A stretch of DNA of 64,000 bases from Clostridiales bacterium (GTDB taxonomy: Bacteria; Bacillota; Clostridia; Oscillospirales; CAG-272). The notes under the pieces are model-generated. The model saw only the letters and a list, made by a program, of their open reading frames with translations, was not told where the DNA came from and did not search any database. The translations under genes and the position numbers were made by a program. Numbering within the stretch: the stretch's first letter is position 1; every line of letters starts with the position of its first letter. The stretch covers positions 1-64,000 of the forward strand of contig JAAZAV010000023.1 of the NCBI GenBank assembly GCA_012514145.1, written 5' to 3'. Positions 45,109 to 48,047 of the stretch are shown one piece after another.

Positions 45109-45648
45109 TCAGCGCCGGCGGGCGACCCTGCCCATAAAATCTGCGCGGGGAAGGTGGGGCAGCCTGATGCGGCGCCCCATCCGCTCGGCCTCGTGAAGCT
45201 TGATAAGCATAAGGCTGACGCTGACGTTAAGGGCGGCGGCGAGCGAGACTATATTGTCCGCGCCGCCGTTCAGCGCCTCGTCAAGCTCCCCGTCGTCGAT
45301 TAGCAGATGAGCGGCGAAGGCATTCGCCTCGTATTCGGCTTCGTCGCAGAGACGGCTGCGGGAATACTCGCTGAAGAAATCGCAGGTGTCTATCAGCTCC
45401 CGGTGGAAGCAGTCGTGTCCGATTTCGTGGGCGCAGGTCATCTGCATAACCACCGGCTCCATGCGGGAATTCAGAATAATATGCCGCTCGCCATTCATGC
45501 GGGTATAAAGCCCCGGCAGCTCGCCGAAGTTGTCGCGGTAGCTGACGTAGATACCGATCATTCGGGCTATGCGCAGAGCGTCGCGGGTGCGGCATTCGCG
45601 CACCAGTTCCTCCGCTTTTTCATGCAGAACCTCGGGTTTTAACAGCAT
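45109..45648 (-). CDS. ImmA/IrrE-family metallo-endopeptidase
   Basis: A 179-residue zinc protease of the ImmA/IrrE (COG2856) family, with HEIGH at about 74-78 and a downstream CDEAEYEANAF helix supplying the third ligand. In ICEBs1, ImmA cleaves the repressor ImmR; in Deinococcus, IrrE cleaves the XRE repressor DdrO after DNA damage. The gene lies 28 bases behind an XRE repressor gene in the same operon, exactly the arrangement of such pairs. No integrase, excisionase or conjugation gene is nearby. The divergent target is a Y-family polymerase. GGAAGG precedes the ATG, somewhat distant. Confidence 0.9.
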   Translation of the reverse strand: MLLKPEVLHEKAEELVRECRTRDALRIARMIGIYVSYRDNFGELPGLYTRMNGERHIILNSRMEPVVMQMTCAHEIGHDCFHRELIDTCDFFSEYSRSRLCDEAEYEANAFAAHLLIDDGELDEALNGGADNIVSLAAALNVSVSLMLIKLHEAERMGRRIRLPHLPRADFMGRVARRR

Positions 45649-45676
45649 GGCTCGTTACATTCCTTCCGCGGAGGGC

Positions 45677-46159
45677 TTACCCGGCGTTTTCCGCAGTATT
45701 GTTGTCGGTGTCGTTTTCGGCTCCGGCATCAGTATTGGTATCGGCGTCCTTCTTTTTGCGGCGGCCGCGGAGAGACTTGCGGCGCACGCTGCGCCCCTTG
45801 GACTCCCAGTAGATATCCTGCATGGCCTGCATGACGGCGTCCTTGTCCTCGTCGGACAGCGACCCGCCGGCGAAAAGCCCGTGAATGCCGTCAACCAGTT
45901 CCTCGGCCTGCTTGCGGGCGTCCTCGCCGTACTGCTCGCTGACCCGGACAACGAAATCCTCGTCGTCCGAAAGGAGGTAATTGAAGTCAACGCCGAATAG
46001 TTCGGCGACCCGCTTGTAGGCCTCGCGGTTGCGGGGATGGGCGGCACCCGTTTCGTAGCGGGTGATCATGTTTCTGCTGACTCCCAGTTTGGCGGCGATC
46101 TCGGCCTGAGAAAGCCCCAGCTTCTCCCGCTCCGCTCTGAACTTTTCTCCGAATTTCAT
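45677..46159 (-). CDS. XRE repressor partner of the ImmA/IrrE protease
   Basis: A 160-residue repressor with an N-terminal HTH_3 domain (about 4-60; KFRAEREKLGLSQAEIAAKLG, then SRNMITRYETG). A middle region (60-115) is probably involved in dimerisation and cleavage. The C-terminal tail of about 45 residues is first strongly basic (KGRSVRRKSLRGRRKKK) and then Asp/Asn/Thr-rich low complexity, unusual for ImmR or DdrO. The ATG at 46159 has GAAGAGG 8 bases before it. The gene is divergent from the dinB-like gene, and TTTGCA/TGCAAA repeats lie between them. Cleavage by the adjacent protease is inferred from family knowledge. Confidence 0.87.
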   Translation of the reverse strand: MKFGEKFRAEREKLGLSQAEIAAKLGVSRNMITRYETGAAHPRNREAYKRVAELFGVDFNYLLSDDEDFVVRVSEQYGEDARKQAEELVDGIHGLFAGGSLSDEDKDAVMQAMQDIYWESKGRSVRRKSLRGRRKKKDADTNTDAGAENDTDNNTAENAG

Positions 46160-46189
46160 AAAAACAAAAACCTCTTCGTTCACAAAATG

Positions 46190-46270
46190 TTTGCAATAGA
46201 AGTGTGCAAAACGTCTTGACAAGAACACTTGTGATGTGTAGAATTTAATTGTACATCGCTGATGTGCAAA
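46190..46270. promoter_or_regulatory. Operator region and promoter between the XRE repressor and polymerase genes
   Basis: A rightward promoter TTGACA (46216-46221), 17-nt spacer, TAGAAT (46239-46244) is flanked by related sites: an inverted repeat TTTGCA-N9-TGCAAA (46190-46210), a further TGTGCAAA at 46263-46270 matching that at 46203-46210, and a near-palindrome GTACATC-GCT-GATGTGC (46251-46267). They are candidate binding sites for the XRE repressor. Confidence 0.6.
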
Positions 46271-46310
46271 CGGATTCTACAATATAAACGGCTGCTTGTC
46301 AATAGGGAAA

Positions 46311-47582
46311 ATGAAAATGAATGGAAAGTTTACAATTAAAGACAATAATATACACCGCGGCTCCGAGCGGGCGATACTCCACGTGGATATGAACAACTTC
46401 TTCGCATCGGTGGAGTGCATGCTTGACACCACGCTGCGGGATAAGGCGGTGGCGGTCTGCGGCTCGGTGGAGGAGCGTCACGGCATCGTGCTGGCGAAAA
46501 ACTACCGCGCCAAGGCGTACGGGGTAAAGACCGGCGAGGCGGTGTGGCAGGCGAAGCAGAAGTGTGCCGGGCTGGTCACAGTGCCTCCCCACTACGACCG
46601 GTATGCCAGATTCGCGAAGCTGGCGCGGGAGATATATTCGCGGTACACCGACATGATTGAGCCATACGGAATGGACGAATGCTGGCTGGACGTGACCGGC
46701 AGCGCCCTGATGGGGAGCGGGTACGAGATAGCCGAAGAGATACGCCGCACGGTAAAAGAGGAGCTGGGGCTGACCGTGTCGGCGGGGGTGAGTTTCAACA
46801 AGGTCTTCGCCAAACTGGGCAGCGACCTGAAAAAGCCGGACGCCGTCACCTGCATCACCCGGGAGAACTTCCGCGAACAGATATGGAATCTGCCTGCCGG
46901 CGAACTGCTTGGAGTGGGACCCGCCACCGGACGGACGCTGGCGAAATTCGGCATTATGACGATAGGCGACCTGGCGAAGGCGCCCGATGAGTTTCTGCAG
47001 CGGCGGCTGGGCATATGCGGACTGCGTCTGAAACTCTGCGCCAACGGTATGGACAACTCATCCGTGCTGGCGGCGGAGAGCGAATATCCCATCAAAAGCG
47101 TGGGACACGGCACCACTACGCTGCAGGATCTGGAGAACGGCGCCCAGGTCCGGTGCGTCATGCTTGAATTGGTGCAGGATATCTCCTCGCGGCTTGCCGA
47201 GAGCGGAAAAAAAGCCTGCAGCGTCGCCATTGCCATCCGCGACAACAATCTGGACTGGGAGCAGCATCAGTGTCCGCTGCCCATGCCCACCCGCAGCCCC
47301 TCCTGCCTGGCGGAGACCGCCTGGCATCTGTTTGAGGCGAAGTATAGAATAAGACGCCCAATACGCTCGGTGTCGGTGCGCGCCATCAACCTGGTAGATG
47401 AGGACATACCCATGCAAGTAGACTTCTTCACCGATTTTGAACGCATTGAAAAGCGGGAAGCCCTCGACCGCACGGTGGAGCTGCTGAGGGGCAGGTTCGG
47501 GCGGAACATCATACGCAGCGCCGTGCTCTTCGGGGACATACACATGCCCGCGCACAACGGCGTGCCCGCGGTGACGATATGA
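46311..47582 (+). CDS. Y-family DNA polymerase (DinB/UvrX-like)
   Basis: A translesion polymerase of about 423 residues. The first metal-binding Asp is D26 in HVDMNNFFASVE, and the second pair is D122-E123 in YGMDECWLD; this replaces the SIDE of housekeeping Pol IV and is typical of the YqjW/UvrX branch. Helix-hairpin-helix (LLGVGPATGRTLAKFGIMTIGDLA) and little-finger domains follow. No C-terminal beta-clamp peptide is obvious. The start is uncertain: ATG at 46311 or 46317, with AGGG just before, or a TTG at 46296. It is divergent from the XRE/ImmA pair and followed by a small conserved gene. Expression after DNA damage through repressor cleavage is inferred. Confidence 0.9.
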   Translation: MKMNGKFTIKDNNIHRGSERAILHVDMNNFFASVECMLDTTLRDKAVAVCGSVEERHGIVLAKNYRAKAYGVKTGEAVWQAKQKCAGLVTVPPHYDRYARFAKLAREIYSRYTDMIEPYGMDECWLDVTGSALMGSGYEIAEEIRRTVKEELGLTVSAGVSFNKVFAKLGSDLKKPDAVTCITRENFREQIWNLPAGELLGVGPATGRTLAKFGIMTIGDLAKAPDEFLQRRLGICGLRLKLCANGMDNSSVLAAESEYPIKSVGHGTTTLQDLENGAQVRCVMLELVQDISSRLAESGKKACSVAIAIRDNNLDWEQHQCPLPMPTRSPSCLAETAWHLFEAKYRIRRPIRSVSVRAINLVDEDIPMQVDFFTDFERIEKREALDRTVELLRGRFGRNIIRSAVLFGDIHMPAHNGVPAVTI

Positions 47583-47641
47583 TCCGCAGAAACGCAATAA
47601 ACGCAATGACAGAAAAACCGTGAAGGGAGGAACGCCTGAAT

Positions 47642-47917
47642 ATGGAACGAAAAAAGGTATATGTCCGGGTCGCGCTCGAAGTTGACCCGGAGGGCAAGGT
47701 ATATCCCCGAAAGATAATCTGGGCGGACGGTCAGGTGTATGAGGTGGACCGCATATCGCGGGTCTGCCCGGCGGCTTCGACCAAGGTGGGAGGCTGCGGC
47801 ATGCGCTACACGGTTCGGATATGCGGCAGCGAGACCTTCCTCTTTAACGAGGACGGAAGATGGTTCGTCGAGGCGAAGGAGGGTGTTCGGATACCCGACG
47901 GCGGGGAGATATTATGA
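47642..47917 (+). CDS. Small conserved protein next to the Y-family polymerase
   Basis: A 91-residue protein, mostly beta, with features I associate with small Firmicutes proteins encoded beside UvrX-type polymerases: KVYVRVALEVDPEGKVYPRKIIW at the start, then GGCGMRYTVRICG and GRWFVEA. No catalytic motif is visible. The position is the one occupied by YolD-like proteins in Bacillus yqjW-yqjX pairs, so an accessory role in translesion synthesis is a reasonable guess, without direct evidence. GGGAGG lies about 10 bases before the ATG. Confidence 0.7.
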   Translation: MERKKVYVRVALEVDPEGKVYPRKIIWADGQVYEVDRISRVCPAASTKVGGCGMRYTVRICGSETFLFNEDGRWFVEAKEGVRIPDGGEIL

Positions 47918-47953
47918 AAAAATGTGGGGCGGGATAAACCCGTCGCGGTTTTT

Positions 47954-48029
47954 CTCCCTCCGTCACAGTTGCCGTTCCACAGCCTCCCTCGGAGAGGGAG
48001 GCGGCACAGTTATACTGTGACGGAGGGAG
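47954..48029. repeat. MITE-like palindromic element
   Basis: Perfect 15-bp terminal inverted repeats CTCCCTCCGTCACAG (47954-47968) and CTGTGACGGAGGGAG (48015-48029) enclose a perfect 9-bp inner hairpin GCCTCCCTC-GGA-GAGGGAGGC (47982-48002). The 76-base unit has no ORF. It shares its left arm and inner hairpin with the block at 29084. It lies between convergent genes and may also act as a terminator. Confidence 0.75.
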
Positions 48030-48047
48030 TTACCTGATTAAGATATC

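Follow-up and report, generated by a model that had tools for sequence, protein, structure and literature searches.

Inducible error-prone DNA synthesis is normally credited to RecA and LexA. In Deinococcus, translesion cassettes are reported to be LexA-controlled (PMC8072749). A different type of regulation is provided by pairs consisting of an XRE-type repressor and an M78 (COG2856) metalloprotease. The protease IrrE cuts the repressor DdrO in the loop connecting helices 7 and 8 (PMC8072749), and in ICEBs1 it is ImmA that inactivates the ImmR repressor, as part of a damage response that depends on RecA (PMC10233336). Activation by single-stranded DNA has been reported for PprI and CapP (PMC10904395, PMC13373217). 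Xre-COG2856 pairs have also been proposed as candidate toxin-antitoxin systems (Makarova 2009, PMC2701414).

The window analyzed here is a stretch of 64,000 nucleotides from a Clostridiales bacterium (assembly GCA_012514145.1, contig JAAZAV010000023.1, positions 1 to 64,000). It contains a further variant of the XRE/M78 repressor-protease pairs, a kind of system that is itself already known, with a translesion polymerase as the predicted target. A literature search, mostly outside of subscription papers, yielded no account of such an XRE-M78/Y-polymerase unit. In our view the unit is probably a switch that replaces LexA, in which cleavage of the repressor by the protease would free translesion synthesis, probably after DNA damage.

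Genes of the unit

The unit consists of four genes, all of which lie where an earlier note on this DNA had placed them.

45109-45648, minus strand: M78 (COG2856, ImmA/IrrE/CapP-type) metalloprotease, 179 aa; Pfam PF06114, E 4.9e-14; HEIGH motif
45677-46159, minus strand: XRE repressor, 160 aa; Pfam HTH_3, E 9e-13
about 46311 to 47582, plus strand: Y-family DNA polymerase; PF00817, E 3.4e-43; PF11799, E 1.1e-17
47642-47917, plus strand: SML (name given here), 91-aa ORF, all-beta, second gene of the polymerase operon

As the note had described, the repressor and protease genes share a single operon, and that of the polymerase and SML lies back to back with it. The unit is flanked directly by genes for a GyrI-like protein and a beta-lactamase-fold protein. 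An upstream GTG was rejected as the start of the repressor gene in favor of the ATG at 46157-46159. The polymerase was classed as such by its IMS domain, its catalytic carboxylates D25, D121 and E122 are intact in the alignment, and its C-terminal region contains the sequence QVDFF, which resembles a clamp-binding motif. M78 proteases and Y-polymerases are each represented by a single gene in the genome, which spans 2.8 Mb at 85% completeness. Directly past SML lies a palindromic repeat with 16-bp perfect arms (47949-48035). It belongs to a dispersed repeat family, having 60 BLAST matches on both genome strands that are often clustered, and it possibly doubles as a terminator at the SML end.

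The protease is a catalytic domain only. The additional domain present at the C-terminus of IrrE and of CapP is lacking, as is any recognizable sensor domain. The H74-E75-x-x-H78 sequence and E105 are invariant in an alignment of 48 relatives. Its best PDB profile match is CapP (7t5t), with IrrE (3dte) also matched, and the closest PADLOC models are capP for the protease (8.5e-13) and capH for the repressor (3.7e-10).

The model of the repressor (pLDDT 87.8) comprises eight helices, of which five belong to the HTH domain and the rest to the C-terminal domain. The FAGG sequence at residues 96-99 falls in the loop predicted to join helix 7 to helix 8, the position at which DdrO is cut by IrrE. 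In an alignment of 49 sequences, F96, G98 and G99 are nearly invariant, and FAGG is kept in 61 of the 66 XRE proteins with an M78 gene nearby. From the model, this is the predicted cleavage loop. Structural matches, including that to the ImmR fold (7t8i), are confined to the HTH domain; the likeness of the C-terminal domain to that of DdrO lies in the order of the helices, not in an alignment. Note that in one orphan paralogue encoded in the genome of the window (L199:5994-6428, minus strand, contig C6), which has no M78 gene nearby and adjoins apparent secG and RNase R genes, LFVGD replaces FAGG.

SML is predicted to contain six strands (pLDDT 85.8). The window ORF matched no Pfam, NCBIfam or PHROGs family, and across 53 members no Pfam or NCBIfam match rose above threshold. 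The single weak match was to DUF6504 (E 0.02), and none of the members was recognized as UmuD or YolD. A Foldseek search revealed no PDB match at E <0.6, and VIA-align reached a Z of 3.2 at best. The gene adjoins either the polymerase or the protease, the latter in the order SML-M78-XRE in Oscillibacter, Papillibacter and Sporobacter loci, and it is also the first gene in XRE and M78 units with no adjoining polymerase. At six loci (L075, L143, L146, L147, L154, L157) a Y-polymerase and SML adjoin a gene that by eye is SRAP-like (YedK/HMCES-type), and several of these have a LexA box; SML is thus part of damage-repair operons independently of the switch. On an Oscillospiraceae plasmid (L237, CP141730.1 38285-50512), a Y-polymerase-SML pair with a LexA box lies near Ku and DNA ligase genes.

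Recurrence of the unit

Eighty named loci, nearly all from Clostridia, were chosen as having the polymerases closest to that of the window. A divergent XRE gene of the same subfamily is present at 36 of these, mostly with an adjoining M78 gene. Cultured species that carry the unit include Hespellia stercorisuis and Papillibacter cinnamivorans. The M78 gene adjoins the polymerase in five of 59 relatives (G007, G020, G038, G042, G048), and in another, G006, it lies near a longer Y-polymerase. The four-gene unit that the earlier note had suggested looking for in related genomes is therefore widely recurrent, and these loci do not follow the pattern by which the pair would always be part of an element with the polymerase absent.

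Control region

The predicted elements between the two operons, the region having been scored for two consensus promoters, are as follows.

46188-46211: half-site-like TGTTTGCAA and GTGTGCAAAA, upstream of the polymerase promoter, near chance alone
46216-46244, plus strand: predicted polymerase-operon promoter, TTGACA-17-TAGAAT
46225-46239: operator candidate O1, ACACTTGTGATGTGT, within the spacer of the polymerase promoter
46249-46269: operator candidate O2, TTGTACATCGCTGATGTGCAA, an imperfect palindrome between both -10 boxes
46274-46302, minus strand: predicted repressor-protease promoter, TTGACA-17-TAGAAT, facing the polymerase promoter

As can be seen, the two predicted promoters face one another, with 29 bp separating their -10 boxes, an arrangement absent from the description in the earlier note. 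Two near-consensus facing promoters (both >11 bits, 20-80 bp between the -10 boxes) are found in 47 of the 50 units with an extractable control region versus one of 36 other divergent gene pairs taken from the same loci, and the arrangement is reached by 2% of shuffles. The promoters overlap in a manner suggesting that either transcript would exclude the other. In coliphages 186 and P2, the promoters of the switch likewise lie face to face.

Operator-like repeats with z >2 occur in 43 of 49 cores, where they occupy the spacers of the promoters and the stretch that separates the -10 boxes. O1 resembles ACACTTAAAATGTGT of the related unit L174, which is the sister row of the window in the polymerase tree (support 87). 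O2 is weak by itself (z 1.6), and its position matches that of strong palindromes in other units. In a set of 40 non-redundant units, cores are more alike the more identical the recognition helices of their repressors (rho 0.27, Mantel permutation p 0.0005), a correlation that is partly phylogenetic; the Mantel figure includes general relatedness.

The TTTGCA/TGCAAA repeats to which the earlier note had drawn attention are indeed present (46189-46196, 46203-46210 and 46264-46270). Taken by itself, the window region has repeats at close to chance level (z 1.5 for direct and 1.6 for inverted ones), and the hexamers as such were rejected as the operator, O1 and O2 being the likelier ones.

LexA boxes

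The independence from LexA that the earlier note had proposed agrees with the distribution of LexA boxes. A perfect GAACN4GTTC lies upstream of 22 of 66 related Y-polymerases without the unit versus one of 53 with it (Fisher p 9e-6), a contrast partly tied to descent because the unit state is strongly clustered on the polymerase tree, where four independent supported pairs fall below what a sign test needs. Nineteen changes of the unit state are counted on that tree, and supported branches account for at least four of them. The sole exception is L120, in which the LexA-box match overlaps the operator pattern of the unit itself. A first count had given 21 of 64 without the unit and two of 57 with it, against shuffle expectations of 0.2 and 0.1, respectively. 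In the viral set, a LexA box occurs at five of 23 polymerase loci without the unit and at one of 13 with it; one viral unit, L239, has a divergent XRE gene together with a LexA box. In some other relatives, S24 repressors adjoin the Y-polymerase.

No GAACN4GTTC with zero or one mismatch was found near the polymerase promoter of the window, a result to be read with the caveat that the LexA site of this lineage may differ, since the regions upstream of the lexA and recA genes in the genome also gave no box with one mismatch or less. A degenerate GAACACTTGTGA with two mismatches overlaps the promoter and coincides with the operator candidate that the window shares with L174. The sole protein in the genome with a LexA DNA-binding domain (contig C50, 197 aa, L069:198-791, minus strand) shows no S24 domain match and no visible GDSM serine. 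The one strong S24 match in the genome lies on contig C20, ∼2 kb from a serine recombinase. At 85% completeness, the assembly could have missed a true LexA.

Mobile elements and phages

Two tyrosine integrases and a serine recombinase are encoded in the genome of the window, all of them outside the 106-kb contig of the window. The claim of the earlier note that mobile-element genes are absent thus holds for integrases on this contig, but many relatives reside in integrative elements and phages, where the switch may work for the element, which makes a damage response of the host one of two possible readings. Units adjoin xis and tyrosine or serine recombinase genes at eight loci (L083, L085, L086, L088, L089, L092, L098, L111) and phage replication genes at four (L103, L112, L114, L124). 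The unit is also found in annotated temperate gut phages and, in viral contigs scanned with the polymerase alignment, at 13 of 36 scored loci. Approximately 15 further units have no element marker in the examined flank, the marker set being small so that association may be undercounted. In a separate group of element-borne loci (L192-L196, L202, L236), an XRE-M78 pair lies divergent to SML and to another M78 protease, which is longer; recombinases follow in several, and the polymerase is either lacking or encoded elsewhere.

In the polymerase tree, the window sequence falls within a supported clade comprising 14 rows, all with the unit. Because several of these are element-borne, a mobile origin followed by chromosomal retention is likely for the window copy. 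Its intact genes argue that the copy is still functional.

Proposed mechanism and alternatives

At rest, the XRE repressor would sit on the repeated operators inside the facing promoters, thereby keeping the polymerase-SML promoter off and probably also tuning its own. Once activated, the M78 protease would cut the repressor in the FAGG loop of the dimerising C-terminal domain, the cut repressor would come off the DNA, and the polymerase promoter would fire. Given the head-on overlap of the promoters, such firing would suppress new synthesis of the repressor, and the Y-polymerase and SML would be released in an all-or-none manner. We infer that cleavage and release are triggered by damage because the relatives PprI, CapP and ImmA are reported to respond to it; the signal is likely to be single-stranded DNA or RecA filaments.

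The many units adjoining xis, recombinase or phage replication genes, their occurrence in temperate phages and at 13 of 36 viral-contig loci, and the element-borne rows in the window clade would also suit an immunity switch of mobile elements (ICE or phage lysogeny), with the polymerase simply the first early gene and the window copy a left-over having no role in host repair. We consider this rather unlikely given that the contig is free of integrases, that some 15 further units lack element markers, and that the window copy has kept both promoters, open reading frames throughout and its conserved catalytic residues. A polymerase under LexA control after all, with the XRE-M78 pair governing only itself, is very improbable. 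LexA boxes are frequent at those Y-polymerases of the family that lack the unit, and the degenerate GAACACTTGTGA does lie at the window promoter, but this site deviates at two positions and falls on the L174-like operator candidate. Furthermore, the boxes are excluded from unit-bearing loci, and an S24-bearing LexA was not found in the genome.

The pair could also be thought of as a toxin-antitoxin or anti-phage module beside an unrelated polymerase, in keeping with the listing of COG2856-Xre as toxin-antitoxin candidates (PMC2701414) and with the PADLOC capH/capP match. This we regard as scarcely credible: at tens of loci the polymerase and the pair are divergently arranged with a conserved control region in common, and beside the pair there is no defence effector, RelE or PIN toxin.

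If the proposed switch, in which cleavage of the repressor releases the polymerase, does govern translesion synthesis, the supply of mutations would be inducible without LexA in many gut Clostridia, their elements and their phages. It provides a testable explanation for lineages in which LexA is absent or degenerate, and it would give the widespread COG2856/XRE pairs a concrete target that is neither immune nor related to transfer. A broader proposal is offered only tentatively, namely that in Clostridia, mobile elements and phages, a metalloprotease damage switch has repeatedly replaced LexA, that its facing promoters are bistable, that SML is a new polymerase partner, and that the switch is a main route of inducible mutagenesis in genomes without a working LexA, possibly including that of the window.

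Comparison with known systems

Like the umuDC and UvrX-type operons, the unit combines a Y-polymerase with a small partner, its inducibility here being predicted, and relatives of its polymerase have LexA boxes or adjoining S24 repressors. It differs in that its repressor is not self-cleaving and SML is not a recognized UmuD or YolD. With DdrO/IrrE (PprI) it shares an eight-helix repressor, a conserved loop between helices 7 and 8, an M78 protease and, by prediction, DNA repair as the output. DdrO/IrrE, however, controls a global regulon through a GAF-bearing protease, whereas the unit comprises one local operon and a protease with the M78 domain only.

ImmR/ImmA of ICEBs1 is likewise a two-gene operon with a small, sensor-less protease and a common HTH fold (7t8i), and its role matches that of the element-borne copies of the unit. 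ImmR and ImmA control excision and transfer, whereas the first divergent gene of the unit encodes a Y-polymerase, even where element genes are absent. In CapH/CapP, as predicted here, a separate XRE-type repressor and an M78 protease govern an adjoining operon. The targets differ, being CBASS or other immune operons for CapH/CapP and a translesion polymerase with SML for the unit. The CapP chain contains 291 residues versus 179 in the window protease, and the facing promoters are a feature of the unit.
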